DNA of 64,000 bases, from NCBI GenBank assembly GCA_948567375.1, contig OX419755.1, positions 62,383,945-62,447,944 on the forward strand, in the 5' to 3' direction. The DNA comes from Lunularia cruciata (lineage: Eukaryota; Streptophyta; Marchantiopsida; Lunulariales; Lunulariaceae). Shown here piece by piece: positions 33,070 through 62,365 of this stretch. Made by a program: the position numbers and the translations under genes. Every line of letters begins with the position of its first letter. Within the stretch, counting starts at the first letter, position 1. Below the pieces are notes generated by a model. It made no database searches and had not been told where the DNA came from. It saw only the letters and a list, made by a program, of their open reading frames with translations.

Positions 33070-33739
33070 TCAGCCCCTTCTTGTTCCCCTTTCCCACCTT
33101 TGGATTAACATTATGTTCCACCTTTCGTTCTTGCTCGCTCTACTTTACTCTCTGAGCTTTTGGACCCAATTTCTGTGGTACATGACCTGTTCTTTCCTTG
33201 TGACTTTGGATTCGCTCCCTACTTTGTCTTTGGATGTGAAACTACTTGCTCCTTTCCATTCCTTCTAACTCGGTTCCTTACAATTTCTTTGGTGATTTCA
33301 CGCATTTAGTTTACCACCTTCTTCATTAATTTGCATCATTGAGTAGTTTGGTTAGTTTTTAGTTGATTTTGAGATACTAATGTTTGTTTCCTTTCAGGCT
33401 TTAACCGCCCATTCCTGTTCCACTTTCCCCTCTTTGGATTACTTTTATGATCCACCTTTTGGTCTTGCTTGCTCTACTTTACTCTATGAACTTTTGGCCC
33501 CAATTTTTGTGGTAGATGACCTGCTCTTTCCCTATGACTTTGGATTTGCTCCCTACTTTGTCTTTGGATGTAAAACTACTTGCTCCTTCCCATGCCTTCT
33601 AACTCAGTTCCTTACTATTTCTTTGGTGATTTCACAAAGTTAGATTACCACCTTCTCCATTAATTTGCATAATTGAGTAGTTTGGCTAGTTTTCAGTTGA
33701 TTTTGATACTAATGTTTGTTTCCTTTCAGGCTTTAACCA
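33070..33739. repeat. Tandem duplication, period about 334 bp
   Basis: The block containing GACTTTGGATTCGCTCCCTAC at 33202 recurs at 33536 as GACTTTGGATTTGCTCCCTAC. Flanking text matches for about 330 bases with roughly 10% difference, and both copies end in TTTGTTTCCTTTCAGGCTTT. The sequence is T/C-rich. No gene is evident. Confidence 0.85.
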
Positions 33740-34607
33740 GTTATGTCTTGAGCCCTTTACTTTCTCTTGCTCACGATTGCATATTCTTCCTTTGGATGCT
33801 GATTTATCTGCATTGCACAATTATCTACTTATTATTGTTATTGCCCTTTGTTTGGATTTTAAGCTTCACACATTACAACTTTTCCCTTCTCCTGAGTGGC
33901 ACCATTGGAAGCAACAAAGTTTGACTTGGCACTCATGAGTTTTTGAGCAGAAACTTGGTACAAAGGAGTATTGACAATTGCTCAGCTACTTTGGCACTAT
34001 GTGACGCATTGATGAAGTCGTAGGTGTTTTTGTGGAGGTTTACTATGGCTACTTTTTGCTTCCCTTTGCTGTTTAGTGTCTCAAGACTCAAGCACCCATA
34101 GCGCTTGCTGTGACATACTTTTATATGCTATCCTTTTATGCTTCACTCTTGCTACCTTGTTACACTTCAATCCGTTTTTGCAGCCACACCATCCCATAAC
34201 TCTTGTATTGTTCCACTCCTCCATTCCCCACCTAATTCTCTCCCTAGTATTTTTCCTTTTCTCTTTGACTGATTCTTGGTTTGACCTCTTGTGTCTATAG
34301 TGTTCCTACCCGACTCCAGCCCACATGATTAATCTTTATTGTTCATGCACTACTTATTGGCGGGCTCTTACATAATGTTTCATCTTTCTTGCAATTGTTT
34401 GCATAGATGCTCTTGGTTTCACATTGTTTACTAGTCCGTTGGCCATCTTTTATTCTTAATTTGTTTCAATTATACCTTTGCTGCAAGTTACATTTGATGC
34501 ATTCTACCTTAGGATTTAACACTACTCTAGCATTGTGAATCATGTACATATTGCTGATCAATTATTTTCATTTCATGAGTTGGATAACCTATTCCTATGA
34601 TGGCTTT

Positions 34608-35286
34608 TGCTCTCATATAGTTATATATACATTTCTACATAACATATATCACTAACAACATCATAGATTATAAAATCAAACTCATATAGAAAGTTACACA
34701 CAATTTTAAAGTGCAACAATATTCATTAGGATCAGAAATTAGATCTCAACACTCAATACTCTTAACCAACAAACATTGATGACACCATCAAGTCACATCC
34801 ACTCTAGCCAAGAGAATACAATTTCCACTTGCCGGCCTCTTCACACCATTGCAAGGAGCTCAAAGGCTCTCAATATATAAGAGAGCTTAGTCAAGATAAT
34901 CTAGGTTCCACTTGTGGGTCTCTGTCCAGCAAGGAGCTCAAAGGTTCAACATAGAAAAAGTGAGCTTTCTAGAGCCATACTTTGAAGTATTCCCTCTAAA
35001 TCGGCCTAGAACTCTAGCCCTAACAACACATATAACAATGCAAATGGTAGCTATAATAGTGCAATCCACAAACCTAATGTAATATATGGCCACCACTAAG
35101 TAGTCTTTGAGTAATTGATGATATAACTATGATCACCAAAAATATCACTCCAATGTCCTATAAACCTAGCTTTGGTGTTGCAAATATTGTGATAAATATT
35201 GTGCACATTCATATCACTACATAACTGCATAACAATGTAGAAGCACAACTCACATTGAAAGTTACACACTACTTTAAAGTGCCACA
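34608..35286 (-). repeat. LTR of Gypsy copy B
   Basis: On the minus strand it starts TGTGGCACTTTAAAG at 35286 and runs to about 34608. A second copy of its first about 110 bases starts at 34718 (TGTTGCACTTTAAAA), the same layout as in copy A. Internal landmarks shared with copy A include CTCTAGCC-type motifs and GAGCCTTTGAGCTCCTTGC. Confidence 0.65.
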
Positions 35287-36248
35287 ATGCTCTCATTATT
35301 ATTCACCTAAGGAGTGAACTAGCTATATCTCAAGTACATCAAGGACAGAGGACTCAACATCAAACATACCATATGCTATCTTCTCAAACAACTATCACAT
35401 ACCACTATAGTAGCAACTACAAGAGAAGAGCCATATTACATGCACCATAAGCCTACACATACAATTGCCAAGCTTGGGTCCATCATACCATCAATTTTTA
35501 AGAAGTAGCATGGTGCATAATTGTGCATAATATGATCCTTCCAAACAACACCATCATGTCCTTCTAACATGAGGAATTTGGAAGGCAAAACCTCATGCAC
35601 TCTCAAGAAAGTGCAACATGTAGTCACATTAAGAGTCATTGGTGTAGTCTATTGTAGATATACATAATTATTTGGGTGAAACTAATGGATTGGAAGAGTC
35701 TATAACCTCCTTCTCAAATTGTGGTATAACATATAGTATCCCTATGTTGAGCAATTGCTATGTTCTCAAAGATCATTGGCATCACTCTTTGAAAGATCTC
35801 TACACGTTGAGAACATATGCTCACCCATACATCCAAATCATAAAATTCCAAAACTACAATAGCATCACAAAGAATGGTTGTAGGTAAATTTGGATCTTGT
35901 CCAAAAAGCAAGAAGAAAGGAGAGAAGGATGCTAAGGAGGTTTATCTATTGAATTGATAACCCATAGCCAACTAAGGCAAGTGGAGATCCTAATATCCCT
36001 AGTGGCTTCTCTACAAACTAAACTTATGCAATCCTCTCTTTTCTATCAAAACAACTCTCTTTGCTAAACCATATGCATTATGGTAATCCCAAGATGTGGT
36101 ACGGTGGTCAATCAACCTTATCACATAAGACCTAAAACTCTCCCAAAAACTATATATATTGATCAATCGATAATTCAATTGGTGCACCAAAATGACTAAG
36201 AACCAAATCCTAGAACAAGTAAGATGACCCTTCACTAGATTTGTCATA
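34608..36248 (-). mobile_element. Gypsy copy B: integrase end, PHD relic and 3' LTR, 5'-truncated
   Basis: On the minus strand it reads integrase (LIDHRTTS, then AYGLAKRVVLIEKRGLHKF, around 36150-36010), a GPY-like C-terminus (TLNVTTCCTFLRVHEVLPSK, LEGHDGVVWKDH, 35639-35436), a PHD relic (CDSC at about 35375) and an LTR from 35286 to about 34608. It matches copy A, 36249-44431, over the same domains (for example KVLPSRVLVLEGYDGVVWKD). Upstream pol is missing: the copy ends abruptly at about 36248, where copy A begins in the opposite orientation. Confidence 0.8.
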
Positions 36249-36499
36249 CAAAGCTATTTGTGATGTTAGCGCTTGGAGGTGTTGACACTTGGTGGAGTAC
36301 TTGTAGAGGTTACAATTGTAAGTTGCAGTTTTTGGTTACTTTGTCACGATAGAGTTCTTTGGGGATTCTAGAGGAGATGACATTCCAGTATACAATGGGT
36401 TTACCCGGAGTGGTGCTTGATATCAACTTGTATCTCAGTTCCATGTGAGAAAGGAGATTGACTCTAAGTTGGAGTTTGACACAATAGCTAACCTACTTG

Positions 36500-37900
36500 A
36501 GAGTGCACTTGTTATGTCCACATCGTTGTTGTAGGACATGTACAAGATTTATGAGGCCTCCAAAGGTCCCAAGCATTACTCTTGTACAATGGGTACCATT
36601 GAGTTGGATGACTTTATCCAGGAGTTCAATAGTTGGTGTGATCTGCAACATATGTGGAACTCAATTTTGTTCACATCTTTCATGGCATGGAAGAGCTTGT
36701 TTTAGCATTTAGAGGGTCCGCCAATGGACAGCTACCATGAGTATAGGAGAGCTCACTTGGAGGAGATTGAGCTATGGAGACAATATTGGTCTCCAAACTA
36801 TGTCTCCATTACTTTAGACTCAATTTCTAGGGGTAGATCGACTATACATATGAGTTCTAGCTTGAGTAGCGTTGGTGGAACTAGTGGAGGTGTACTAGTT
36901 GGAGATAATGCTACTACAAGTGGAGGTTCTGCTACTATGGGTGGTGTAGTACTAGGGTTTAACCCTATGGTGGAGTTCTTCTAATAATTGGGGTAGAACT
37001 ACCAAGGAGTATAGATTGACAAGTTGAAGAGCTTGCAGGAGTTCCAATGGAAGGCTAGAGAAAGCCTACGCAAGGCATACACTTGTGTGAGGTGACTGAT
37101 AAGTTTCACTCAGGGAGTTACTAAGGCCCAAGCAGTCCAGTTTTGGCATATTGGAGAAGGAGTTGAGACGTAGAGTTTGTGATGCAACGTTGTTATAGGC
37201 TACTTCACCCACATTGGTAGTAGTCGTTGGTTTGGCTGAGTGTATTGAGTTCAATATGGTGGAGGAGAGAGTGGTGACATCTAGATTTGATAGGGAGACC
37301 TCATCCACAATTATGACTTCTTCTAGAGTGCAACAAAGTGCACCACGTCCAATTGGTTTTTGAGGATAGGGTGGATAGCCCAAATCCTATGGAGTGAGTG
37401 GAGGGCCTAGTGGAGCTAGACCCTTACCTTCACTTTTGAATCAACAACAACCAATGAGTGGTGGTGTTTCTTGTTGGACTTGTGGTGTACCTCACCATAG
37501 GAGAGAGTGTACTCAAGGCAACAGACTTGATACCTCTAGTGCATCACAGTCAGCAAAGAGGCAATGTGAGCATTGTCATAGATATGGTCACTTTAGTGAT
37601 CAATGCTTTGACCTACACCTAGAGTAACAAAGTGGTAGGGTTGTAGTACTTTCCCTTAGTTCTGATACAACCATAGCTACTTGCATTGAGCAATTGGAGC
37701 AAAGATTGGCTAGCATGGTCATTGCTCAAAGGAGATCAGATTCGGGTGCTGAGGCTTCCACTTCATATGTTGGTGATAGAGATGCTTTGGACTTCATGTG
37801 CGGAGCAGCACATGTGGATGCATCTACAACAATGACTAGGAGTGCAATACGTGCTCTAGAGCCTAGACAAGCATAAGTGGAGTTGGACCCACAGAGAGGA
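36500..37900 (+). pseudogene. Gypsy A gag with two zinc knuckles
   Basis: Gag-type text: YKIYEASKGPKHYSC, then GTIELDDFIQEFNSWC, then DSYHEYRRAHLEEIELWRQY. A Gly/Ser-rich linker follows (36850-36980). The knuckles are CWTCGVPHHRREC (37469 on) and CEHCHRYGHFSDQC (37567 on), the second a canonical CX2CX4HX4C. The role in the family is RNA packaging. Stops separate the blocks at several points. Confidence 0.7.
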
Positions 37901-38429
37901 GAGGTTGGAAAATAGGTTAGTCTTCCTCAATCTTTCATGCTCTTGGAGGCCCTATAGACGTCATTCATGCCTCCTAGACATCCTATTGTAGGTGTGGTAG
38001 TTGGTGATAGGGTACATGATAGATAACATACTAGTGAGCCACGTGCTACTATACAAACTAAGTCTAGCATGATGTTGGGGACGGCTCAGTTGATGATGTG
38101 TTATCATTATTATTAGTCATTAACATGTGTACATTGAGAGTTGACCCAACCCTAGTATTTTGGTTGGCTGTCGCGCTTTGTGAGAGTAGGGATTATGTGG
38201 TCCCTACTACTAGAGTAGAGGTGGTCGATAGTGGAGCTGACTTGGTTGAGGAGCATGGGATCCGCTCAACGACCAATGGTTTATGGTAGGAAATGATGAC
38301 TAGATTGGAGGAATTACCAACTAGACCGGACTTTGAGCAAGCATAGTTTACACATGGTGTTGTCCTATTGGATAACCAGATGGGGATTTTTCATTTGGTG
38401 TGACCTTTAGAGAAGGCCTATACACCATA

Positions 38430-38800
38430 GAGGGTCTTACTTGACTTTGGTGTGCAACCCCTTATGTTGGGGAAGGCTACCGTTGTTGGTCTAGGGTTAC
38501 AAAAGACCAATGTGGAGAGGTGTCCATTTCAGATCTAGATATCTTGAGGTGGTGGTTTGACACAATACATCACATGTGGGGAGTTTTTTTTCCAAGTTCA
38601 ACCTGGTCATCTGATTGATAGCTTGGGTGGTGAGAGCTCAAGCTATTGAGACAATAGCTGAGTCATATGATGTGCTAGTTGGGGGAGCAATGTTATACTC
38701 CATGGGTTTTAGTATTGACTATTGGGAGGAGACAACCTCCTATAGACTAGGTTAGCAATCTGGTGAGGGATGAGTATGTCACCTACCAATATGCTTCAAT
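38430..38800 (+). pseudogene. Gypsy A aspartic protease
   Basis: VLLDFGVQPLMLGKATVVGL at 38434 on aligns with the retropepsin active-site segment. The expected Asp-Ser-Gly triplet reads Asp-Phe-Gly, and a later block ESYDVLVGGAMLYSMGF (38660 on) matches the second half of the fold. It would process the polyprotein, but the active-site change and stops make it inactive. Confidence 0.6.
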
Positions 38801-39059
38801 AGTAATAGTCTTGTCTCACTATAGTCCAGGACCATGGCAGCTTCAGTTTCAGCTTTCAATGGTTTTGTTACTTGGCCTAGTGAGTTATTGAAGTGGAATG
38901 CCCATGCAAAGGATACTCCAATACTAGAAGAGATCACTTGGATTTGGAGAACAAGTGGGATTATTCCATCTACCTTGGATGTTCCTTTGTGGAGTTCAAA
39001 GGAGGCATTACAACAACATGCAGATCAATAGGTGCAGTAGGCTTGGAGTGGAGCCTTTG

Positions 39060-40100
39060 TACCACCAGGAGACCAATGTGAGGATGAGCCTCCAGAGTCA
39101 ATTACCTTGACACCTCAGGATACCACACTCATTGCATGGCAATATCTAGTAGAGGGGGTTTGTGTATTGGAGTTGTTTGGTGTGATTAGCATTGGACCAG
39201 CTACGGTATTATAAGCAGGTATACAAGTACAATGTACTTGTATGTGGAGAGAGATGAGACAGCTAGGCAAGTCTCTCTCCATCATGTGGCACACTTGGAC
39301 TATTGCTATCTTGAGTTATTACCAATGATAACAATTAGGGGTTACCAAAAAGCCCTACCAACAAACATTTCCTTACTGGGGGCACATGATCTAGAGAAAC
39401 ATAGACTTGTTCATTTGGTGATTTTGGGATGGCCATGTTAGGGACATACACATGTTGGCCGAGGTTTGTGTCTTCAAGTTCCTCATTTTGGTGTGTTTTG
39501 GGAGAAGTAACGGATACTACAACATCTCCAGGTTCATCAATTTGTTTCTCTAGCTTACATTTTGGAGAACGTTCCTTTGATGGGTGATTCTCTCACCAGA
39601 GTGGTGGCAAGTACACATTAGATCCATTCTTGGATGAGACCTAATCTATTGTTGGATGCAGCTAGAGTGGGATCATGGGCTCATCATCTTTGTCTTTGGT
39701 GGATAAACCTCTTACCTAGTGAAGTTCTATAGCACGCTTAGGATAGGATTCAATGACTAGACCACATCATTGTTGATGACATCTTTGATGTTGAGTGTCA
39801 GTCTCAAATGGTGGTAGTGATTGATAGGTCACCTATGGCAGTGGTGAACTAAGTTGGACAACCTAAAGACGCTTTTTCCTCACTTATGAGTTTCCCAAGC
39901 TCTCATGATTTTTGAGAAGGAGGTCTTGGATTAGTTTGGGACTCACAATTATAGCAGTTGGTGGAGCCTAGTGCTGATGAGAGAGAGCGGGTGATGGGTT
40001 TTTGCACCGGTATTACCGTTGTTCCAACATTGTTAGGTGCATCCAAGCATCAAGTGTTAGGTCAAGATATGGACTTGAACTATTTGCTTGGATTGTGAGC
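39060..40100 (+). pseudogene. C5 cytosine DNA methyltransferase domain inside Gypsy pol
   Basis: Motif I-like VCVLELFGVISIG (39158 on) binds S-adenosylmethionine in active enzymes. After one frameshift, a single frame from 39232 to 40098 reads YVERDETARQVSLHHVAHL, then motif IV LVILGWPC (39418-39438, catalytic Cys) followed by a stop and GHT, then motif VI AYILENVP (ENV at 39565-39573). A motif VIII region (ARVGSWAHHLCLWW, about 39664) has its Arg residues replaced. Near the end are RSPMAVVN and a terminal block ADERERVMGF (39973-40002) resembling the conserved C-terminal motifs. Stops inside are TAG, TAA or TGA at positions that look like former Gln, Trp or Arg. Family knowledge: C5 methyltransferases transfer a methyl group to cytosine, and some retrotransposons of dinoflagellates and streptophyte algae are known to carry them. 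This copy is dead. Confidence 0.72.
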
Positions 40101-40234
40101 CTTGGCTTGGTAGAGAAGCATAGGATGCACTTGATAGGCATCACCGCTTGAACTGTTTGACTTGGATTGTGAGCCTTGGCTTGGTAGAGCAGCATAGGAT
40201 GCACTTGATAGGCATCACCACTTGGACATTTGTG
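40087..40234 (+). repeat. Tandem duplication, period 74 bp, in Gypsy A
   Basis: CTTGGATTGTGAGCCTTGGC at 40087 recurs at 40161. The 74-base units differ at a few positions. It marks the end of the methyltransferase region and breaks the frame. Confidence 0.85.
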
Positions 40235-40749
40235 AGCCTTGTGCCTATCAAGATGATTCAAGCATATGTTGGCGGTGATGGACCGAGTGGACATGGTATT
40301 TTTGGGATACAACCAATAGCTACTAGGGAGAGTGGTCTACTTGGAGTCCATCCAGGTGAGCATGGTCTACTTGGATTACACCCTTGGTCTACTTGGGATG
40401 CAGTTAGAGGACGTATGGAGCTTGCAGCCAGATCAAAGGGGGTTTTCACACTAAAGTTGAGACCTCTAGTGCTTGGGAGCATGACACTATTGCTCCCAAG
40501 GGTCTAGTATAGCAGCCAATCAATATATCTTCCACTCCTATGACAATTATAGAGGATACTTGGGAGCCAGATCTTGGACCCAAGCTTATAAGAGAGGAAA
40601 GACTTAGAGTTTGGAGGTTCTTGAGGAGCTACACTAGTTGTTTTGCCTTTAGTATGAAGGATTTGGGTGCTCTAAAAGGATCTAGTATTTGGATTGAGCT
40701 GACTAACTATACAACTATTTTTTGAAGTCCTTATTGATATAGTGATATG

Positions 40750-41450
40750 TAGAGGACATTGATTTAGAGTCAGATTAGAGACCTTTTTGAGGTTGGTTTG
40801 GTGGAGATCTCACATGGAGAGTATAGATCAACAATAGTGATGCCATCCAAGAAGGATATGCATGGCAACTAAATAGAAGGCAAATATGTGGAAAAACCAT
40901 CCTATCAACTAACAGACTAGGGCTGGTTGGTATGCCATGCCTACACCAAAGGAGATCTTTTCTACAATTAGGCATGCAAAGGTCTTCAATAATTTGGATC
41001 TTCAAGCAGGATATCATCAGTTGCCGATTGGGGAGGAGTATAAGTCCAAGACAACATTTTGGGTTATTGATCCTCATGGAAAAGATGTGTTATATTAGTG
41101 GAATTTCTTACCATTTTGGCTAAAGAATGCTCTTGTTGAGTTCCTGAGGGTCATGGATAGGATCCTAGCTAGATTGGGCTTTGCTCAATGCTATATTGAT
41201 GACATTTTGGTCTATAGCACTATTGTGGAGGAGTATGAGAGACAATTGTTGGAGGTGTTTAAGAGATTGAGATCTCATGGACTCAAATTACATCTTGGGA
41301 AGTGTAGGTTCTTCCATGAGCAGGTTGAGTATTTGGGTCACACTATCTACCTTGGAGGACTTGGTGTTCAACAGACCAAGGTGGAGGCTATTGCATGTAT
41401 TCCTCGGCCTACAGATGTGAGCAAAGTGCAACATTCCTTGGGTTGGTGAA
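40750..41450 (+). pseudogene. Gypsy A reverse transcriptase
   Basis: It reads IRDLFEVGLVEISHGEYRST, then DLQAGYHQLPIGEEYKSK (about 40995) and, in the same frame after one stop, the catalytic box YIDDILVYS (41193 on), then LKLHLGKCRFFHEQVEYLGH. The YxDD catalytic residues are intact, but a frameshift near 40870-40980 and a stop near 41098 break the protein. Confidence 0.85.
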
Positions 41451-41559
41451 CTTTTATTGCTTATATGTTAGAGCATTTAGTGCCATTGTTTATATGTTAG
41501 AGGGTTTAGTGTCATTGCTAAAGGCTTGACAAAGTTGACCAAGCTTACACAAGAGTGGT

Positions 41560-43200
41560 GTTGGAGTAGGAGCATGAGAGAGCTTTTGTAGAGCTCAAAG
41601 AGAGGTTGACATCTGTTCCTATTTTGAGGAGACCAATCAAAGGATAAACATTTCAGGTTCACACTGATTGGATTATGTTGGGGCTTGAAGCAGTGCTCAC
41701 CCAACATGATGATTAGGGGAAGGAGTTTGTGGTGGCCTATGCTAGTTGCTCCAACAATTCAGTGGAGGCAAAGTAAAGTTCATATGAGAGAGAGTGCTTG
41801 GTAGCAGTTTCGGCAATAGCACATTTTTTATGTTACCTATTTGGTGACCCCTTGACTCTCATCATTGATCGTCAGCCATTGAAGTGGTTGATAAATTCTG
41901 ACAAGCTTTCAAGGAAGCTTGCACAATGGGCTTTGAATTTTTCAAGAGTATGATTTCACGGTTATTCACCAACCTATAGTGGTGAACTAGCAAGATAAGA
42001 TCGGAGCACATTTGCATGGTAAGACAAATGAGGAGATGGTGCCAAGTTGGCATGCATCTGCCTTTCTTTGTATATTTTTTGAAACTTTGGTTGTATCTCT
42101 CGTAGCACATACAAGAGGAGTTATTGAGGTCATAGATCCAAAGAGTGGAGATAGTGGTATAGCTAAGCAAGACATTCATGATGATGTCTTAGTGATGGAT
42201 CTTTGCACTAGTGTTGTGAGTGGCACAATTGGGGCCAAGGAGAAAGAACGTGTCCTTATGTGACACCTTTTGCATATAAAAGAGGATGGTAGAGTGAGAG
42301 TAGTTCCACTTCCATCTCAAAGACTATAGTTGGTCCGTCATGCTCATGAGGAGCTAGAACATTTTGGAGTAAAGCGTACATATAGCTTACTCTAGAGTCA
42401 TTATTAGTGGCACAATATGTAGATAGATGTATAACAATTTGTTGCCCAATGTGTGGTTTTTGACCAAGTTAGAGCATCATTTAATGCTCCTACGCCACAA
42501 TTACACCCATTACCTATCATGGGATTGGGTTACCGTTGGAGTTTGGACTTTGTTGGACCTTTATTGTTGACCGTGAGACATCATTAGTATGTTTTGGTAT
42601 GGTGAAGCACTTCTCCAAGTGGATTGAGTTGGTGGTACTTCTTGACAAGTCCAATGAAGGGATGGCTTACCCATTCCTTGATTGGATTCTCAATCATTTT
42701 GGTGCACCAATTGAGGTTTTGACTGATCAAGGTACATAGTTCTTGGAGAAGTTTCAGGTCTTGTGTGACAAGGCTTTGATTGATCATCGTACTACCTCCC
42801 AAGATCACCTTGAGGCAGATGGCTTAGCAGAGAGAGTGGTTGAGACAATGAAGAGAGGATTGCTAAAGTATGGTTTATAGAGAGGCCACTTGCAAGATTT
42901 CTAGTTACCTTCACTTGCAAGATTTCTAGTTACCTTGGTTGACCATGTGCTATAAGTTCAGCCGGAAATCCTCCTTAGCATCCTTCTCTCCTTACTTTCT
43001 ACTCTATGGACAAGATCCAGATTTACATGTAGCCATTTGTTGAGATGCTATTATAGTGTTGGACTTGGATGATCTAGATGTATGGATGAGCGCATGTTCT
43101 CAACGTGCATAGATCTTTCAAAGAGTGAAGCCAATGGCCTTTGAGAATTTGGCAATTGCTTAGCATAGAGATACCTTATGCTATGCTACTATTTGAGGAA
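41560..43200 (+). pseudogene. Gypsy A RNase H and integrase
   Basis: RNase H text ECLVAVSAIAHFLCYLFGDP and LIIDRQPLKWLINSDKLSRK lies around 41790-41920. Integrase text follows: a catalytic-core segment around WSLDF (about 42540), FSKWIELVVLLDKSNEG, FGAPIEVLTDQGT (42700-42739) and ADGLAERVVETMKRGLLKY. The D,D-35-E layout is recognisable. Several stops and at least three frame changes occur, and a 24-bp tandem duplication sits at about 42888-42935. Confidence 0.75.
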
Positions 43201-43214
43201 GAGATTATAGACCC

Positions 43215-43602
43215 TTGATCCGTCAATTTCATCCAAAGGACTATGTATATTTACAACAAACAACACAGATAACACTTAATGTTTCAATAGGCCGCACTAT
43301 CTTGAGAGTGCGCAAGGTTTTGCCATCTAGAGTCCTTGTTTTGGAAGGATATGATGGTGTTGTTTGGAAGGATCATGTGCGCAATTGTGTGCCATGCCAC
43401 CTCTCAAACATTGATTCTACTATGGACCCAAGCTTGGAACTCGTACATGCAGACTTGAGGTGTATGTTATGAGGCTCTTTTGGTGGAGTTGTTACTATGT
43501 TAGTGTGTGATAGTTGTTCAAGAGGATGGCATATGGCATGTATAACTCCTCCCCTCACGGGAGTTCCTCATGGCCAATGGTTATGTCCTAGATGTCCTTG
43601 AT
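43215..43602 (+). pseudogene. Gypsy A integrase C-terminus with PHD finger
   Basis: A GPY-like segment (GRTILRVRKVLPSRVLVLEG) is followed by VWKDHVRNCVPCHLSNI and then a PHD-type zinc finger. The first ligand is CML-stop at about 43462-43473 (the stop stands where the second Cys should be), then [21 protein letters not shown] and WLCPRC ending in TGA at 43600-43602. Spacing is C-X2-(C)-X11-C-X2-C-X4-H-X2-C-X15-C-X2-C. PHD fingers read histone H3 tails; in an integrase one would plausibly guide insertion, as chromodomains do in chromoviruses (inference). Confidence 0.75.
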
Positions 43603-43771
43603 CTATAGCTAGTTTATGCTTTTTATGGTATAGATTGCAAACATGTGACTAAGGATGGGGCTTGATAGCACCAAGCCTCTTGATCTTTTTCCCACCATAG
43701 GGTATACCATATACTTGGAGAAAATGGCTCTCTTGAGTTAGAGGGACCTAATTGCCAGCTAGGAGGGCGAT

Positions 43772-44431
43772 TGTGATACTTTAGAGTCCATGTATGAATT
43801 ATGTGTGAGTTGTGCTTTTATAGTGTGTGATGTTGACAATGATGTATGTTGTGTAGCGATGTATATATGCACGATAATTGTCATACCATTTGTAGCTTTG
43901 CATCTTGATTACTTGGACACTTGAGTAGTACCGAGAGTAGTTAGAGGTATTTTGGCACTTACTCGTAGATTACTTGCTGTCAGATTTTGTGTTTTGGATA
44001 TTGACTACATGGTAGGGCCCACCGTCACCTTGCACTGTTTGCAGCGTTGGGTGTGCCATGAGCGGGACTGTTGGTGTGAGACCTAGGTTAAAATCAGGAG
44101 TATGTCTTGGGAGTGTAGCTCCAAAGAGCTCACTTCTCTATTGTTGAGCCTTTGAGTTCCTGGCTAGAGTGGATAGAAAGTTGGTGAGCATCACTTGGAG
44201 TCTCTTAGCTAGAGTGGGTGTGGCTTGACTGTAATCAATATCCAATTGTTGGTAAACCATTGAGTGACAAATCAATTATTGATCTGATTGAGTGTGATTT
44301 GAGTTGTGTAACCAAACTAATTATTGTGGCACTTTAGAATCCATGTATTACTTATGTGTGAGTTGTGCTTCTATAGTGTATGATGTTGTCAACATAGTGT
44401 ATGTTGTGTAACAATGTATATACGCACAACA
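43772..44431 (+). repeat. 3' LTR of Gypsy copy A
   Basis: It starts TGTGATACTTTAG right after a purine tract and ends about ...CGCACAACA. The first about 110 bases recur at 44335 as TGTGGCACTTTAG..., so the LTR carries a direct repeat at both of its ends. Copy B has the same arrangement. The length is about 660 bp. Confidence 0.65.
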
Positions 44432-45184
44432 AATGCCCAAATCATCAATTTTGTAAAATTTAGCCTAATGAAATCTTTCAAAAGAATGGCCAATTTGACT
44501 TTTGCCAACTCTAATGACCTTCCAAATCCTTTGTAAGAAAAATCAATCACTCCAATTTGATAGATGGAGATTTCTACATCCCTAATTTGGAAGAATGTGT
44601 ACCTCAATTTGGCCTCTCGACCAAATATATAACCATCGATCTTTCATTTGACTTTCTTGTACTCAATTTGAATCCCCAATCCATAAAATCAAATGCACAA
44701 ATCCTTAATTTTGGAAAAAATTTCAACTCTATTGTACTTGGTACATAAACTATTAAATCTCTAGCAAAAAGAAGATAGTGCTTCTACACAAAATCAATCA
44801 AACTACCCAAGAAACTATCAAATCTCCAACAAAAAATTGATAGTGCATCCACATACGATCACTCACTTTGTCAACAAACCAAAAAAAATCAAGCAACATG
44901 TGATCTAAAGTACCATCAATCACACCATGCTTGATACTACAAATGCATATAGTTCATGTTATTGATTTCCACACTCACTTCTTCTATGTGATCACTCAAA
45001 CTATCCAAAAAACTATCAAATCTCTCGCAAAAAGTTGATAGCACTTCCATGCATGATCGCTCAAATTGTCAACAAACTCAGAAAATCAAGAAGCAATTGA
45101 TCAAAACTACCATAGATCACAACATGCTTAGAGATACTGCTTATGTCTATAATTCATTTACCCAATTTTTCACTTAGTTCATTT

Positions 45185-45510
45185 ATGTAATTAGATCTCA
45201 ACACCCAATATTCTTTGCCAATAAGCACTGATTATATTTTTAAACCATACCTACTTTAGCTAAGAGAATCCAAGTTACACTTGCCAATCTTTGTCTACCA
45301 TAAATAACTGCTTGAATGCTCAATATAGAAGAAGTAAGCTTTCTAGAGCTACAATTTTTAGTATACTCCTTGGAGTAGCTTAAAACTCCAAGCCAAACAT
45401 GACACTTAAAAGTGTGATTTGTAGTTGTAATAGTGTAATCCAAAAACCTTATATCATATTTGGTCACCACCAGTAGTCATTGAGTAATTGATGATATAAC
45501 TAGAACCGCA
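45185..45510 (-). repeat. Fragment of the Gypsy A/B LTR family, minus orientation
   Basis: It matches the plus-strand reading of copy B at 34735-35130: TTAGATCTCAACACCCAATA against TTAGATCTCAACACTCAATA, and GAGTAATTGATGATATAACTA in both. No internal element sequence adjoins it. Confidence 0.7.
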
Positions 45511-48500
45511 AAAACTATCAATTTAAATCCTAGCAAACTATCCTCAACACTATAAATGTCATAACATAGATTTCTTGTGTTCAAAAGTTCAATTGCATTA
45601 AATTTTGATTCACCTTTCTTTCCAAGATAATGCTCACTTATAAAAAATGACAAAGAAACACTTGACAATGACTAATAGCATTGTATTGCATAAAATGTTT
45701 GCTAAAATAAGATGTCTCTAAAGTTACAACAAATATCTCTCAAGTGATCATACCATTGATTTATTCAAAAAAGTTATATTTATCTAACTCATTATTAAAC
45801 ATCAGATACTTTAATTTATTATTTTTAAGGTTCTTTTGTCAAAATTCAATGAAATTTCCATTCTTCTCTTGCAATTTAATTCTTTTATGGATTAAGAATT
45901 TGTCAAATAACCATTCAAACCTCATCAGATCATCAAAATCCCTGATTTATTGCTTTGATATAATAGATAATTATGAGTTATTTCTAGTATTCCCATCTAA
46001 AATATCATAACTTCAATTAATCCCATTCTCTTTAGATAGATAATTGTAAGCTATTTCATTTAACCTCATAAATTATTATGTAACCTAAATGGAAAGAATG
46101 AGATAGATATTATACTTTGTAATAAATGTATTTAGGTTCCTTGCTCCTTATGAGTAATGTCTAAATGGAAAAACCTCAACCTCAAACAACTACAAGAATA
46201 AATGCTCTAATCCGATCCAAAAATAAATAAATGACTATTCTTTGTGAACAAATAGATATGGAGGTAGGTATTAATAATAAGATAGATACTGAAATCAATA
46301 CCAAGCTCAGGTACAGAAAATGAAGAGTAAAAAATACCTTTTATTCTTCATTCAGATCCTTTCTAAACCTTGAAGGTAGGTTGTAGGATAGATTTCAAAC
46401 TTCATAAGAACAATAAACTCATTTTGTTAATCCTTTTTCAAACACACTAAATCTTAATATAGTCTTATATTGGAATTATATTCACCTTTCAATATATATA
46501 TTTCCTAATAGGATGCATAAAAATGATTAAGGATTGATGTTGATTTATGTTGATCTAGAGGGAGAAAATTGGCATTCTTTTGAAAAGTCCTATATAACAC
46601 CATAATTCTCCATAGAGTGTGTAACATCTTCCCTTATGAAAGTGCAGATACTTATTATGAAAGTTCATAATTATTGATACTCTTTGTAAATATATATTAA
46701 GAGTTTCCTTTTCTAAGTTCCTTCTTCTTAATATGATGCTTATTTCCACTTTGAGTAGAAAATTGGGTGGATTTTATAGTGATTTAAGTAATAGTCTAAT
46801 CATTATTACTTCATAATGAGATTTTTTTGTTAAATGCATCTCATAGACCAAATGATAATGAATTATTGCTTGTGCTTATCATCTCCACAAAGATAGTTAT
46901 ATACCTTTAGTGTTTGGAATCTCTTAGGATAGTTATGTAATATTTTTTGTCTATTCTACTCTAGATATACATTTTAAAACAATTTCATCAAGATGAAGGA
47001 TGCTTGGTTAGATTTTTTTATTCCATACCGAGTATGAAGGCATGCTATTACTTTTAGTCCAAACTATCCAAATGGAAACTCTATCTTGTTGAAATCTAAA
47101 GTGTTATATATGAATACTCTTATTCTTAATTCAACACCACAAACTTTCCTTTGTAACACTAAAATACACTTTGAAATATATATTATATTCCAAAAACAGA
47201 AAATTAAGGATCCTCATTCAAAGAAAATTAATAATATTGTTTAAAAAATGATAAAAATCCTCGTAATCCTTGAGGTAGATATTTAAATATAATTTGAGGT
47301 AAAATAAAGAAGAATAAAATGAGGTTCTCACTCCCCATTGCTCTTCATTATCAATTTGTAACTTTGCACATACATAGACGTGCATTCCAACAAAGATAAA
47401 AAATTTCTTTCAATGGTTTTCTTTGTTTTCACATACCAACTTGAATATTGTATAATAAAATATACCTTAAACACCATGATTTATGCAAGTGACATAGAGA
47501 ACAAAGAATGATGCAAGATCAAATTTATTGTGAAAAGAAGTTAACAAAATTGTACTTCAAACTTTTACAACCTTGGGCTTTGTAAATCTTTTCTCTACCA
47601 TACTCATTCTACTCATTTATGGTGAATTTGTATTAAATATATCATAAATAAATTGACATTAATCTACTGCAATTTTGACATTGATCTCACTTTATGCAAA
47701 TAACTAAGTTCTTTGTACATTCCAATTAGTAAATACTTGGTAATGTCTTAGCCTTCCTAATATTGTGATAACTATTTAGTTTTGTGTTATCTCACTTATA
47801 TGTCTCATTTTCATGCTTAGGTTCTTTCTACTACAAACTCCTCCCACCTTAATCTTTTAAATAAAGGGATATTCTCTCCTCGTGTTGATGAGAATTTGTT
47901 ATTGATAAGTAAGAGTTCCTTCTATAGATCAAAGAAGAAGAACATAAGTCCACTCTTTTATCTATTTCTTTTCTACTCAAGCTTGACAGGAAGTCAAGGT
48001 TTGTATATTAATCCTAAACCATCTAAGAAAGAATACATATAAAGAACTAAAGCTTCTTTTCAGTCTATGAATAAAATGTGTACCCATAGATACATGTGCA
48101 GTATGATCTACCACTAGTGAATCCATAAATAAAAATAAAAATAAAAAAATAGGAGAAAAGGATGTATCACTAGATATTATTCAACTACATGAAAAGTACA
48201 ACTTTTCTTTGAAATTTTATATCAAATATCTATAGTGGATCTAATACTCACAACACTTACTCATATATATAAATCTGTAAAACTACAAGTTGCCATTGAA
48301 ATCATACCTCTTCTACTCATTTTCAAACAAGAATAACAAAGAGTCTATTAAATTAAAACTCCTATTTCATCTTTGCCTTGAAGGTTTCCTTGGAGATGGG
48401 TTTCAGTACTTTGATAAAGTAGAATAGCAATAATATCTTGTACAATTCAACATTATTCAAAAATATGGTAGATATCAAATCATTACTAGAAGAAATAATA

Positions 48501-49877
48501 TATTATAAATATCACAAAGATTAATTCTAGTCATTTGATAAAAAAAAATAGCAATAAGACATTCTATATAACACTATTAAAAAGATGGTATATATTATAT
48601 CATAACTATCAAAGCATTATTAGAGGGAACATATCACAAGATTGTTTTTATTGATAGGTGTTTTATACTTGGGCCTATCAAGTCAGATACTTACTCACTT
48701 TTATAGTCTAACTTGATTTTGGACTCTAAAATCAGTAATGTAAGGGTGCATATGGAAATATATGATAATGCAAAGTTGCTTCCATTAAGGTTTAATCTTC
48801 TAAAATCTATTCATCACTTCCTTCAATTTAGTGACTACAAAATCACCTCCCTCTAAGTCCTTTATATACACAAATTTACATGTCATAGAAAATGAGTTAT
48901 GAATTTGTTAAATAAACTTATGAGTTTCATAGATTGAACTCTTTATAGATATTTTTTTAGGCTCTTAGCACTATAAATTTCTTAAGATTTTCCTATAAGT
49001 TACAACTATAAAGAAATTTTTTGCTTCATTAAGTCTTAACTCTATGTAATTTACTTAAGACTTTTCTCAACAAGATGAATTTACTCATTACCTCTTGCCA
49101 AGGATCAATTTTGAAAATTTAATAGGAAACATCAGTTTACATTAAAGCTCAAAAAACTTGAATGCTTTTAGTTACCAATGCACTTCTTGTATATCTCTTG
49201 TTCTGAAATACTATATGATTCTTCCTTCCAACTTTGATACCTATAAAAATTGACACTTGCCACTATACTTGTAGCCTCATTATAAATGTAAAAACTTTAT
49301 GTATGAAATCTAAAGGGTCAATATAAGGCTTCTTACATTAGAGATTGATATTACAAGCTCCTAAAAATCTAAATTATTTAACTTTTGCGATGCTTTCTTC
49401 TAGGATGTTAACTTTAGTTTACTTCCAACTCTTCAAATAAAATTTCTGCAGTAGTAAGTGGATCTATCTTCTTCCATTGCATCACCTTTCAATATATCAT
49501 CTGTTTCTTTTGTTAATTCTCATTTTTATCATTGAATGCTTCACTCTTTGGCTTAGCTCAAAAGATTTCACAAGAAACATATAAAGTTTAAATTTAAAGA
49601 TAAGATAACACACTTAGAAGATGATCAAATGAGTGAAGAACTACTTGCACGATTTAGATGATCAATTTTTGCCAATAATTTGTAGAATTCATAAATTTTA
49701 TATGTTAAATCTTATTATTTGAAAGACAAGAGATGAGGTATTACTCATAATCTTTTGTGTTCATATGTCTTGTTGAGTTCTCTAGTAAGTAAGGTCTTGA
49801 CTATTGGAGTGATAGCATAAATTTAGCTTAGTTGAGTATGGAATTTAATTTCATACCTTTTCTTTCACACTCATATC

Positions 49878-50412
49878 TCATGTTCTTGCTAAATACCATA
49901 CGACCTTGGGAGTGCTCAAATTCAAAATGGAAACTTATTTGAAGAGCTAGCTTATTGTTAATACTGGTCTAGAAAGCTCTCAAGAAGATGCTTCTAACAA
50001 GAGAAGAAAACATAAATAACATGCATAAACATATAAAAATATATAACATAAAAATTATAATATATAAATAGCATTCATACACTTAACAAGATATGTTAAT
50101 TAGCCTTATACTTTGATTCTAAGCCGGTGTGGAGTTTATAGCTATATATCATGTTCTTGCTAAACACCATACGACCTTGGGAGTGCAAAATAGAAACTTA
50201 TTTGAAGAGCTAGCTTATTGTTAATATTGGTCTAGAAAGCTCTTAAGAATATCCTTCTAACAAGAGAAGAAAACATAAATACCATGTATATAACATATAA
50301 AATATATTACATAATGTCTAAACATTATAATATATAAATAACACTCATACACTAAGCAAGATATGTTAATTAGCCTTATAATTTGATTCTAAGCCGGTGT
50401 GGAGTTTATAGT
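49878..50412. repeat. Tandem duplication, period about 271 bp
   Basis: TCATGTTCTTGCTAAAYACC starts units at 49878 and 50149, and both end TCTAAGCCGGTGTGGAGTTT. Roughly 8% difference and small indels separate them. It is noncoding. Confidence 0.9.
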
Positions 50413-52150
50413 TGATAGCATGTATATGACTTAGCCAAGGTTAAGCAATGAAGCTAAAATTTGCCAATATTATCTATATGTGCTCAAAAAATTAGTTTGG
50501 GAATAAAACTAATGGCCTAAATAATTATCATGTTGAAATTAATGTGCTAAGACAAAAGGAGAGTAGAATTACATAAGATGAAAAAAACACTAAGAATACT
50601 AAGCAAACCAAAATTTATTGTGCACTATAACTCAAGCCTCAATCCATTATTTAAAATGATTGATATTTCATTTAAAAGCTTTCAACAAGAGCTTTTAAGG
50701 AACCCAAGTCTTCCTTAATTCCATTGATCATTGCTGCTCAATTTAGCTTACATGAGGTAATACTATAAATGGCCAAAAGAGAAAATTTACATGTTATGTG
50801 TTTAGAACCTCAAATCAATCTTAGCAGATTTAAGACTTGATCTAAGAGATTTGCAATGGAGGCTATAGGGTGTTGATGGGTTGGTAAATGAGACTAAAAA
50901 TCTAGAATCCATGGAAAATTTGGTTGTTATATTGGAGGTTCATAGTGTCAGGACCTTAATATAAATGACTTGCACGGTTGGATGCATAGATAGAAAGAAA
51001 CCAACTATGGACTGGAGCTTTGTGAGCTTGAGAGAGGCTTAGCATTAGAATAGGAGATAAGTCGGAACTAGGAATACTAACATCGTGTTCTTTGTGTAAT
51101 ATAATGCTCAGATTATGAACCACTCGAAGTGAGATTCCACTCCATACAACTTGACAGTCAATCCATAATTCATTGTTGTAATAACCGACTGAGCAATGCC
51201 TTGTATATTGGAGGTATCAAAGGAACCTTTTGTTTTGATGAAGTATCAAAGAATTAAATTCCACACCTTCTCAATGATTCATGCACTATTAAAATTAACC
51301 GCCATAAGTTTATCTTCATTGAGAAGAAGGTATATAGACCGAGTCACAAGATACAAAGACTTGCAAGAAAATCATGGTCATATTTTGCTTACTTGGAGCT
51401 TTGCTCCAAGTTAGAAACCTTAAATTCTGAATATTCAAGAGTTTATTTTCATATGAAACTTTTCATCTGTTGGCATTCATATCACATACAAATAGTGTAT
51501 CCGTTGATCTATAAGGACTTTAATTGATCCGTAAAATTGGATCATATTAATATCTTTTCTCACTTTTATAAATCAATATGAACTGTGGGTATTGTGCATT
51601 CATAACCCTGCCATAAAATGCAATATGTTCTCCTTATCAACATGAAAGAATATCAATTTAGAGGCTACTCACAGAAAAAGAGGTTATTTCTGGTTGTTAT
51701 AAGCTTAGTATTTTAATTTATCTAACCAATGGTTAAGACTTAGTGAGAAACAAAGTGTGGTATATGCTTCTTTTGGAAAGGAAGAGACACACTAAGAGTT
51801 AGGTCAATCACCAATTTAAAAATTCATCATATTTCTACACCTTACAATGTGTTGTGTATATCATTCAAATAACTTTCTTTTTTCTGTTAATGATATACTA
51901 CTATAACCAAAAATAAAAGGACACTTCTCTACACATCTTATGCTAAACTAGCTGCAGTTTTTGGAATCTTGTGACATAGTAGGAATAATTCTTGAATTGA
52001 CGAACTTTATTTTTCCAAAAATATTTGCACTTACCATTTTTCCTAGTTCAGTTGACCACTTTAAATTCATTTTTCAATTAACAAAGTGATTTGTCCGAGA
52101 AAGGTTTTAGTAAAATGTTTGTTTTCTTCCGTACACACGTTACCTAGATG

Positions 52151-55518: not shown

Positions 55519-58500
55519 CTATTTCACCATTTGAGTAGGGAGTTCCCCACAATTGTATTGGGTGTGGCCCATGAAGGAGCTAGGTCCAACAACTAAAGGT
55601 AGAGCGATGTTGTCCCTGACAAAGCACACAGGTAAAAATCCGATTTGTAGAAGTGATCCAAAGACGAAGGATTTAATGGTAAGTGGGAAGGTCCTCTGAT
55701 GCCTCTCAGCTGCATATTCCTCTAGAGCCTTGTTTATACTTACATTATCATCTTTGCCGTCCTGAGCAAGAACCACACCTAAAGTTTGTGCTAGAATCAC
55801 GGCATCTTCCAGTGCTGTGCATCCTCCTTGTCCCAAATTGGGTGTCATTGGATGCAACGCATCCCCTGCCAGTGTTACACCCTTCTGCACTACTGGAGGA
55901 GTGATACCCGGGATATTCCACCGATCTGATAGTGCCGCCCTTGATAAGCTCTCGAGAGGTGTGTTGTTGAGCAACTCGTCCATATGCAGGGGCCAGCCGT
56001 CGATCAAACTCAGCATTTCCGCTTTCACCAGTTTAGGATCAGTAATTTTAGGACCTGGAAAAAGTTGTTGCTTTATATTAGGGTAAGAATAACAAAATGA
56101 CCAGCTTTCGAGTTCAGAAGTTATGATAGTAATGAAAAGTGCCTACAAAAGAACTACCTTGGTTTCTCCGGTTGGTCACCACGAACCAGTAGACCTTGTT
56201 AGCCGAAATTGGCGCTATTCCGCCACGCGTCCCTGCGCCAAGAATTTGTAAAACCTTGTCACCATAAGGATGTGAATCAGGGTATTCTGCCACTCCACGA
56301 ATTCCGATCTGACCAACGAATCGAGGCTGTGACAATCCCATCCATTTTCCGACTACAGAGTTCACCCCGTCGGCACCCAGCAAGACCTGCACATACACAA
56401 AACAGTACGTTCTAACTGGGCAATAGTGGAGGTTTAGAGTAATTTATTCGTAGCTTTCTTCAAGTCCTGCACATGAGATGATATAGTGTTTCACGAGAGG
56501 GACACATTGCGTCAGACTAATTCCGAGATCTTCTGAGAGCAATCTCTAGAATAAAGCTCACAAGTTGGAATCCTAAAACAACGGAGTCTGTACAGGGTCC
56601 AAAAACTAGACACTTCACAATGTTAACGCGTTGTGAGTTATTTCTAACTGACAAATGAGTTTGTGATGTACCCTGGTGCGTAGAATCGATCCATCTGATA
56701 GTTCCAATTGATAAGGACCATCTTGCGGTAATTGTCTGACAGAAACCACGCGTGAACTGAATCTGATAGTCCCTTCCGGTGGCACAGACGCAAGAGCTTT
56801 CACCAACAAATTGCGTTCCACACCGCACACTTCGTGGGGCCTACAGAATAAAGAGTTCATGAGGTGATGGCGAACCAAAATCTCGTCTCGTCAATCCTAT
56901 CAAGAAGAGGACGCCTTCGGCAACTCAGATTATTTGCATTCTATGGGACACAGAAACTTTCAGGGTAGAACTCTTACCCTGCTAAGATTAAGGTTCTTCA
57001 AACAATAACATGCACCTAAATTCCTGATGGACGTGTTAGAATAACAGCTACCAGTTTCGTCATGGGAGCTTGAAATTGCTTTCACATGACTTGAACACAT
57101 TTAGAATAAATGATACGCGGAAGGCAATTTCGGAATAATTCAAGAAAACTGCAGCTGCAATATGAGCCCGGATCTATAAAACATACAGTCACTTCTAGAA
57201 GACAGCTGAGGCAGCATTTTACAGAAGACTCACCGCGTGAACAATTATTGTCTCATGGCAGACAAACTTTGTTTGTCTTCAGACTTACATTTTCTATAAG
57301 AAGACACTGGAATGAACGAACTCTGCAGATTGTTTGAACTTCTTCAAAAAATAACCGGAACTGTGATTGATGATGCAAATTCTGCGTAAAGTAGTTGTAT
57401 CAAGAGCGGTTCCTGATCTAGGTATCATTCCTGACTTTTTTTTACTCGCTCACGGCTGTGTTGAGTGATAACTCTCAGTCTTTTGACTCTTTGAATGCTC
57501 CCCGGTTCTATCTATTTACCGGTTACAATAGATCCAAAGTTGGAAGTGCAATGACATCTCAGGAGGGCATGGAGACAATATTTACCCATCGGGACATTCT
57601 GCAAATTCGAAGCTCTTCAGAAGCTTCTCCTTTGTGTCGTAGAATCGAACTCTGCACATCTCATAAGCAGAAGGTTATTAGCCTGAGCAAACAGTGTCAA
57701 GCTTTCTGAACTTACTAGATATTATTGACTCCTCAACTCATCCCACAAGATCTGGTCATGGAATTGTGGAAAAAGAAGTATGTCACGAAAGTGAAAATAA
57801 TGTTATCTCAAAGTACAGATTTGCGTTGGAATCTACCGGTAACAACACTCTTAGTAAGTTGTTCCAAATACCCAGATATTCGTTGGTATTTTGCGCGGAG
57901 GTCGTTTGCGATTCCAAGTTGGTCAAGAACGCGCCAGGCATTCTTCCACAAAGTCAAGGATGATCCCGTCGTTCTGATTTCTGGAGACTGCTCCAACACA
58001 ATCGATTTGACACCAATCCTGCAGACAAACAAGTAAAGTCAAGCAACGGAAGTTCAAAAGTACTGGTTCATTCTCATAAAGTCTTGTTAGTTGCCATCAC
58101 ATATGGAGGATACCAAATACTTGTCCTCTGATCAGACAGGGACTAAACGGAGCCAATAAGCCGAAACAGAACTTGGATTGCTGATTCATTCTTCGATTCT
58201 TTTCACGGTCAAAGATTGAATACGTAACGAGACTCTTGCACGTCCCTACATGGAGACAAGTGTCTGAAGCACTTAAAATAATTTCTGTTACCTTTACATT
58301 CACAATCTCATGTTCATACTGGACAAACTACATTGCTGGTGGCATTTTGCTCTGAAACCTGAGCAACATTACCAACACTATTCACCTATGCATTGCAGCG
58401 GCAGCAGCAAGGCCAGCAATACCAGCTCCCACAATGATCAAATTATGAACTATATCCTTCCCGTCCGTTTTGGAACCATCTGCAGCTTCCATCACACCTT

Positions 58501-58747
58501 GGCTACACCGCACTACGCTTTTGTTTCTTATCTCCCAGTGAATTGCCCGTAGATAGTGTCTGTTTCCATTCCCCGAACATTCATTCTCCCCGCAGTTGAA
58601 TGTCGTACGCAGTAATCCAAATCCGTTTCTGAAAAGACGGAAATTATTACCGGATTTGGTCCAGGGGGAAATGCTATGGCTAGTAGCGAGAGATGGAACA
58701 CCGTAAACGATCACTGAGGAGGCTGTCATGGTGTACTCTTCATGCAA
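55519..58747 (-). CDS. FAD-dependent monooxygenase, CTF2/MO1 type
   Basis: Six exons on the minus strand: 58747-58386, 58018-57872, 57651-57586, 56840-56672, 56386-56158, 56054-55519. All borders are GT...AG and in phase, giving 502 codons plus stop. About 100 N-terminal residues without homology (Ser/Arg/Asn-rich) could be a plastid transit peptide. The FAD-binding Rossmann motif LIIVGAGIAGLAAAAAMHR then follows at about residues 103-121. Next come SLTLWKNAWRVLDQLGI, HEVCGVERNLLVKAL, the DG motif GADGVNSVVGKWMGL, and the GD motif LAGDALHPMTPNLGQGG. This is the UbiH/zeaxanthin-epoxidase-like class-A flavoprotein layout. Plant CTF2/MO1 proteins are close relatives; their substrates are not established, so no reaction is assigned. 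The alternative start ATG 58729 (MTASSV) is possible. All expected cofactor motifs are intact, so it is likely functional. Confidence 0.9.
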
Positions 58748-59513
58748 TTCCTCTTCTTGAATCTTCTCAGGACGGAAAGGAAGCTAGTCGAGATGAACAA
58801 GATTGCGAGCCAGTTAAATGAGGATCGTTCTACGAAAGCTTTCCAATTAAACCACCACCAGCTAACCTGCTTATTTCCCGACAGCTACCGATAAGTCCCA
58901 AAGCGGCAGTGAATGTCCCACCACACCATGAACGCCCTCCGTACAAATGTAGTATGACACTACGGTCTTCCAACGAGGAGCAGGTAGCAAACCCTGATCC
59001 TAACTGAAGGGTGGTTTTGCATATACGGTGAGATTAGTGGAGGAATATCATGCCGAGTTATTCTTGTGCTAGCAATGGTTACACTTTTTCATGTGTAGTT
59101 GCCCATAGTGACTCGGGATACACCATGTCCGGTTTGTCATTCCCGTGTGTGTCATTGACGATTTATCTCACAAAGATAAAGATTAATATGGAAAGATGCA
59201 CCAGGATTATAGATTATGAACGGATCAATCAGGATTTCAAATGAGGTGAATGATCATATAAAAAATAGTGATATTTAGTATCAAGTATGCTTCTTCTATC
59301 CTTTAGTTGATTGATATGGGGATATTGATCTACTAGTGTAAATAGTTAATATCTCAAGCCAGATTGATCGAATTGTGTAAATAGTTAATATCTCAAGTCG
59401 CTTATACTTTGAGATTATTTGAGACTACTTTTTCATGTTCAAGTCTATTCTATAGTTTACCCCGTATACTCCATGATGTAGCTAGACAAGTTTTCACCTA
59501 ACACTTGATCATT
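58748..59513. other. Upstream region of the monooxygenase gene
   Basis: This is presumed promoter and 5' leader of the minus-strand gene. The part near 59340-59400 contains GTGTAAATAGTTAATATCTC twice. No gene is visible. Confidence 0.5.
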
Positions 59514-62107: not shown

Positions 62108-62365
62108 AGGAATGGGATGGATGGAATTTATGGACCACCAAATCCACTTCCGCCAAACCATTGGGACTTTCATGTCTAGATATTACCAAAGCATCGTTTC
62201 ACACAATTCATCACCTCACGCTTTGGGCAGGATTTTCTACATATGATCACCGTGTCAGAGGAACCCTTGATACTTCTAGTTGTAACTTATGGAGAACGGT
62301 AGACGTGTTGTATCTACGTGTTAATCAACTAGATAAATTGCAGGTAGTGGAATAGAGTAGTAGCG

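Follow-up and report, generated by a model that had tools for sequence, protein, structure and literature searches.

The 64,000-nucleotide window analysed here, from the liverwort Lunularia cruciata (contig OX419755.1, positions 62,383,945 to 62,447,944 of the forward strand), contains a dead copy of a Ty3/Gypsy retrotransposon, copy A, that carries a C5-cytosine methyltransferase domain in its Pol region. Of this identity and architecture we are almost certain, and just as confident that the family is one of land plants. The domain is of the DNMT3 type, with de novo DNA methylation as its predicted activity.

A DNMT3-type methyltransferase domain in Pol

In copy A the domain was delimited by motifs, homology, tblastn and stop counts:

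39157..40080, + strand: DNMT3-type C5-cytosine methyltransferase domain, pseudogene

The original prediction had proposed C5 methyltransferase motifs in this region, and all four were located: LELFG, resembling motif I, near 39170 in frame 2; GWPC, then TAG, near 39430 in frame 1; LENV near 39570; and MGF near 39990. It had also proposed a single frame from 39232, which holds for the later motifs, with point stops, but not for motif I; a frame change near 39232 divides the domain and leaves this motif on the other side. The frame from 39235 to 40080 has 9 stops in 282 codons vs. 18 and 23 in the other two forward frames, a count that by itself is weak evidence for a coding frame. The two pieces of the window copy matched 0 Pfam families, because this single copy is too decayed.

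Using the window domain as query, we obtained 30 proteins at E <= 0.01, the best (5.7e-102) covering 98% of the query at 58% identity. A second search admitting longer proteins gave at least 54 at the same threshold (7991 candidates scored). An organism name was present on 5 of the 30 and 26 of the 54 proteins, and the sources named were Marchantia polymorpha, M. paleacea, Calypogeia fissa, Sphagnum troendelagicum, S. fallax and Closterium sp. NIES-53 and NIES-54. The suggestion of a land-plant family is thus borne out by the named Marchantia, Calypogeia and Sphagnum proteins. A third search with a wide alignment returned four proteins and no cellular DNMT3, and no protein named Klebsormidium was among the matches of any of the three. 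The expected PF00145 matches were found over the curated cut-off in 8 of 9 scanned relatives from the first search, in 5 of 7 relatives and 4 of 6 polyproteins scanned separately, and in copies from the same genome; copies and relatives were analysed individually, not as a merged consensus. NCBIfam gave only the general dcm model, under its cut-off, in 3 of 3 proteins, and one scan of viral contigs found no relative.

An alignment (A2) and residue tallies placed motifs I, IV (PC), VI (ENV), VIII (AHRxR) and IX/X in unpermuted order, which sets the domain apart from DRM. The catalytic residues are kept, with motif residues lost in some rows (Cys in 1 of 72 rows, Glu in 3 of 81, the second Arg in 6 of 75). 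Among solved methyltransferases DNMT3 was the nearest both by sequence and by fold, and the same comparison ruled out a bacterial-type methyltransferase as the closest kind. In a methyltransferase tree of 69 rows, including the window domain and DNMT3A and leaving out rows with fewer than 200 covered profile positions, the window domain fell within a 34-row set holding the labelled liverwort and moss rows (SH-aLRT 96). Its end branch was 0.51 in this tree, which was made by a quick method and has several long branches; the Marchantia rows P0022, P0038, P0041, P0042, P0046 and P0047 are unlabelled in it. In a reverse transcriptase (RT) tree of 10 rows the window copy grouped with three Marchantia rows (99).

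Copies in the Lunularia genome

The assembly searched comprises 565,766,749 bases in 74 contigs. It holds at least 123 PF00145 matches (123 of 2161 first-look candidates scored), a number of matches and not of individually verified family members, and open frames around them reach 1428 codons. As the original prediction required of other copies, the segment lies between protease and RT: 25 of 30 sampled loci carry the element-type domain, with the protease 5′ of it in 23 and RT 3′ of it in 24 of these 25. By eye, the other five look like host methyltransferase exons: L001 and L004 resemble DNMT3, L002 and L015 resemble DRM and have permuted motifs, and L003 is of another kind. The window copy shares 79.6-81.3% DNA identity with the 25 genome copies. 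All seven domains were found in order in 10 of 11 longer stretches, the 5′ part of L035 coming from another element, and the PHD finger was present in 11 of 11.

Layout of the element and its PHD finger

The PHD finger and the split repeats described below, like the DNMT3 class, go beyond the original prediction. By tblastn, the order in the window copy is gag, protease, methyltransferase, RT, RNase H, integrase and PHD; the succession protease, RT, RNase H, integrase, seen also in relatives and genome copies, is that of Ty3/Gypsy. The remaining coding parts of copy A, and those of a second partial copy (copy B), are as follows (P numbers denote relatives; P0031 is from Marchantia):

36538..37149, + strand: first piece of gag, frame 1 (tblastn, P0031 residues 1-198, 53% identity)
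37133..37984, + strand: second piece of gag, frame 2, with two CCHC-like knuckles seen by eye (tblastn, P0031 195-493, 45% identity)
38107..38622, + strand: aspartic protease region, decayed (tblastn, P0031 529-699, 36% identity; translation)
38639..39156, + strand: conserved linker from protease to methyltransferase, frame 2 (tblastn, P0031 705-905, 47% identity)
40555..41935, + strand: reverse transcriptase plus RNase H, spread over two frames (Pfam on pieces; tblastn)
42297..42877, + strand: integrase zinc-binding and core region (tblastn only, P0076 1086-1279, 44-50% identity)
42921..43603, + strand: C-terminal part of integrase with the PHD finger at its end, about 43460-43603 (tblastn, P0070, 66% identity)
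35361..36284, - strand: end of integrase plus PHD region of copy B, in head-to-head orientation to copy A (tblastn)

The RT and RNase H pieces matched PF00078 (E 4.6e-22), PF17919 (E 1.6e-21) and PF17917 (E 5.4e-21), and the PHD finger of the window copy matched PF00628 (E 5.7e-11). Protease Pfam families were over cut-off in relative P0087 and below it in P0049, P0062, P0069 and P0079. Copy B has a 75% nucleotide match to 42643-43541 of copy A.

The closest matches of the P0076 PHD finger are those of KMT2D, MLL3, PHF21A, DPF3, ATXR5, KAT6A, KDM5, UHRF1, AIRE and CHD4. Several of these fingers bind unmodified H3K4, like the ADD domain of DNMT3, and the element appears to combine a putative writer with a putative reader of epigenetic marks. 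The finger is not demonstrated for every relative, since it falls below the Pfam cut-off in P0080 and the integrase-end match of P0084 stops before it. In P0071 the PHD finger is followed by a Tudor domain of the PTM/DIR17 type (residues 1191-1239).

Pol also occurs in a second arrangement: P0071, P0072 and P0085 have the methyltransferase after RNase H and not before RT. These three form a separate group in the RT tree (99) and also come together in the methyltransferase tree (91, unstarred, with long branches). Because they group in both trees, the methyltransferase may have been retained and relocated a single time, and not acquired on two occasions.

Split terminal repeats and mode of insertion

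The two identical long terminal repeats usual for Ty3/Gypsy are absent, and the element has split repeats of the form A1 ... B1-A2-B2 instead. The same B1-A2-B2 end was found in the window copy and in neighbouring copy B:

43769..43880, + strand: terminal repeat B1 of copy A (direct repeat at spacing 553)
43881..44322, + strand: terminal repeat A2 of copy A (placed by its position between the two B repeats; in other copies the corresponding repeat pairs with A1)
44323..44435, + strand: terminal repeat B2 of copy A (direct repeat at spacing 553)
34615..35294, - strand: terminal repeats of copy B, namely B1 (35294-35184), A2 and B2 (34720-34615) (repeat comparison)

For 10 genome copies the upstream sequence was also examined. 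A1 was present in nine (not in L031) and was followed directly by B in none of these nine. The 3′ end consisted of B1, A2 and B2 in 9 of 10 copies; B2 has only 45 bases in L031 and is missing from L036. All eight copies with both ends readable start with TG and end with CA, and each has the same 4 bp duplicated on either side; a 5-bp target duplication was found in 0 of 8. Such ends and target duplications are those made by an integrase. The rve family was over cut-off in P0068, P0071 and P0076 and just under it in P0080. With an rve integrase and 4-bp duplications in place of a tyrosine recombinase, the element falls outside the DIRS class; we name it Ty3/Gypsy for its Pol domains, as was done for the Klebsormidium element. 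The two bases at the B1/A2 join are GC in seven of eight copies and AC in one, which would resemble a junction of joined ends. During reverse transcription, the 5′ end is plausibly regenerated from A and the 3′ end from B.

Further repeat pieces were seen nearby. Locus L040 has an extra A-B pair further upstream and L033 an extra B-A after the element, both of which seem to belong to neighbouring elements. In the window, an A2-like piece at 45189-45540 is inverted relative to copy A; no B repeat was detected alongside, and the piece is possibly the A1 end of a third copy.

Proposed role of the methyltransferase and rival explanations

As the best explanation of the whole we narrowly favour a self-marking methyltransferase together with PHD-tethered integration in the Ty3/Gypsy family to which the dead window copy belongs. 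The enzyme would be made as part of Pol, remain with the reverse transcription complex and methylate freshly made double-stranded cDNA before it inserts or while it does so; the insert would thus arrive pre-marked like host chromatin. The PHD finger would tether the integration complex to chromatin with unmodified H3K4. Old copies, methylated by whichever enzyme, would then decay through C-to-T change. The parts of this scheme differ in strength: judged from the sequences, the enzyme probably had a role in the cycle of the element while it was active, the chances that this role was self-methylation of cDNA are about even, and targeting to unmodified H3K4 is put forward tentatively. Equally tentative is a broader picture, in which an old streptophyte lineage (Closterium, mosses, liverworts) with a DNMT3 writer and a PHD reader (and a Tudor-like one in one relative) would premethylate its cDNA, steer insertion to unmodified-H3K4 chromatin and have become a main source of DNMT3-like coding sequence in some liverwort genomes.

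Several points weigh against this explanation. Methyltransferase activity of the family is predicted from sequence and fold, the timing in the life cycle is conjectural and the ligand of the PHD finger is guessed. For in-frame copies and pairs with dS over 0.02, the median dN/dS of the methyltransferase domain was 0.40 (210 pairs, 21 copies) vs. 0.26 for the RT piece (270 pairs, 24 copies). Stops occur in 18 of the 21 in-frame methyltransferase copies, only three being free of them, and they were not depleted in a context-matched control in which each change was moved randomly among sites of the same trinucleotide context (385 seen vs. 328 expected; for the RT piece 129 vs. 136). Pairs are non-independent in both constraint tests, and no significance is claimed. 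In the comparison of P0031 (Marchantia) with P0068 (Sphagnum; its gene model is without parts of the domain), the methyltransferase is 50% identical with gaps, gag 51% and protease 54%, and the start of RT exceeds all of these at 93% over 56 residues. CpG observed/expected is 0.17-0.21 in every 4-kb bin of 36000-52000, 0.32 at 32-36 kb and 0.41-0.81 elsewhere; the value of 0.17 reaches up to 52 kb, past the end of the element, so the depletion is not element-specific and could stem wholly from host methylation.

The plain dN/dS is biased by the prevalence of C>T and G>A changes, which make up 77% of differences from the commonest base and all 41 stops. In the context-matched control the methyltransferase had an observed/expected N/S of 0.65, and the RT piece one of 0.60. 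Against the distant relative P0049 the Marchantia domain retains 52% identity, protease 44% and gag 25%, and among the segments compared the methyltransferase is the best kept N-terminal of RT against P0049, P0062 and P0044. We take this to mean that, in the active family, the domain was under constraint similar to that on RT, and that decay of the copies sets in after insertion.

These data bear on the idea of a captured passenger, a domain that owes its DNMT3 likeness to descent and rides in Pol without a present role. The stops in 18 of 21 measured copies and the occasional loss of motif residues noted above would fit it; its presence from Closterium to Marchantia, its conservation N-terminal of RT and a constraint near that of the RT piece speak against it, and we consider it quite improbable. 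Somewhat less improbable, though still unlikely, is action in trans on host DNA, for example by raising background methylation or saturating the silencing machinery of the host, and not mainly on the element's own cDNA. Host methylome effects are raised for Symbiodinium in the discussion of PMC5890265, and the many copies in the Lunularia genome would suit such action, whereas the place in Pol between protease and RT suggests travel with the replication complex. Methylation of RNA rather than DNA, a possibility raised in PMC5890265 for LINE-borne enzymes, we judge very improbable, given a sequence far closer to DNMT3 than to DNMT2 and best fold matches to DNMT3. That the motifs arose by chance in an arbitrary frame of a decayed element, as the nine stops and the lack of a Pfam match in the window copy might suggest, is refuted by homologues at E 5.7e-102 and by the domain in 25 of 30 genome loci, leaving this reading a practically negligible probability; protein homologues and the same loci also ruled out a one-off capture of a host gene.

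Other features of the window

A tandem duplication (about 420 bases, 82-89% identity) lies at 33073-33826. By eye, open pieces at 55519-58783 (- strand) resemble exons of a host FAD-dependent monooxygenase gene, and those at 2142-2795 and 62348-62902 other retrotransposon gag or pol. Neither ARAGORN nor Rfam gave a match in the window.

Comparison with known systems

Retrotransposons bearing a DNA methyltransferase (DNMT) have been described in dinoflagellates and Klebsormidium (de Mendoza et al. 2018, PMC5890265), as restated for streptophytes and dinoflagellates in PMC12344493; PMC6338049 states that land plants, such as tracheophytes, lack them. Among the open-licence papers surfaced, no titles or abstract starts mentioned such elements in land plants, and the available parts of PMC9033089 and PMC8616336 hold nothing on them.

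Host DNMT3 and DRM genes share the methyltransferase motifs, and exons of both looks, judged by eye, occur in the same genome. The DNMT3-like exon at L001 matched human DNMT3A (35% over 106, 58 bits) and a DRM-like piece (38% over 120, 57 bits), and four element domains over only 27-55 residues (22-44 bits). As this exon is closer to DNMT3A and the DRM-like piece than to the element domains, recent capture of the methyltransferase from the present host is unlikely. By description, Phygy and Selgy of moss and lycophyte are likewise non-chromovirus Ty3/Gypsy elements (Neumann et al. 2019, PMC6317226), but the main text of that paper mentions neither a methyltransferase nor a PHD finger.

SymbioDIRS-Dnmt3 of Symbiodinium also has a DNMT3, with reported de novo CG methylation, in a retrotransposon whose repeats form A and B sets (PMC5890265); it has a tyrosine recombinase, whereas the window family has an rve integrase and 4-bp target duplications. 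The closest match is KnitGypsy-Dnmt3 of Klebsormidium nitens, whose published description shares all three traits with our family: a DNMT3-related methyltransferase, its place within a Gypsy Pol, and DIRS-type repeats combined with Gypsy domains (PMC5890265). Its methyltransferase was reported to be under purifying selection (Ka/Ks < 0.2). The window family differs in occurring in land plants and Closterium and in a Pol that ends with a PHD finger, unmentioned in the main text of PMC5890265, Fig. 4c and supplements aside.

The kind is thus already known; what appears new is the branch in land plants, its size and the PHD finger. For bryophytes only, the published absence from land plants is contradicted by the named proteins, and the family spans liverworts, mosses and green algae, often with a histone-reading finger. 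As Marchantia polymorpha is tractable in the laboratory, why a retrotransposon would carry the type of enzyme that silences it becomes testable in that plant. A DNMT and a histone-reading finger in one Pol, split repeats with integrase-type insertion and two methyltransferase positions all bear on element replication and domain gain.
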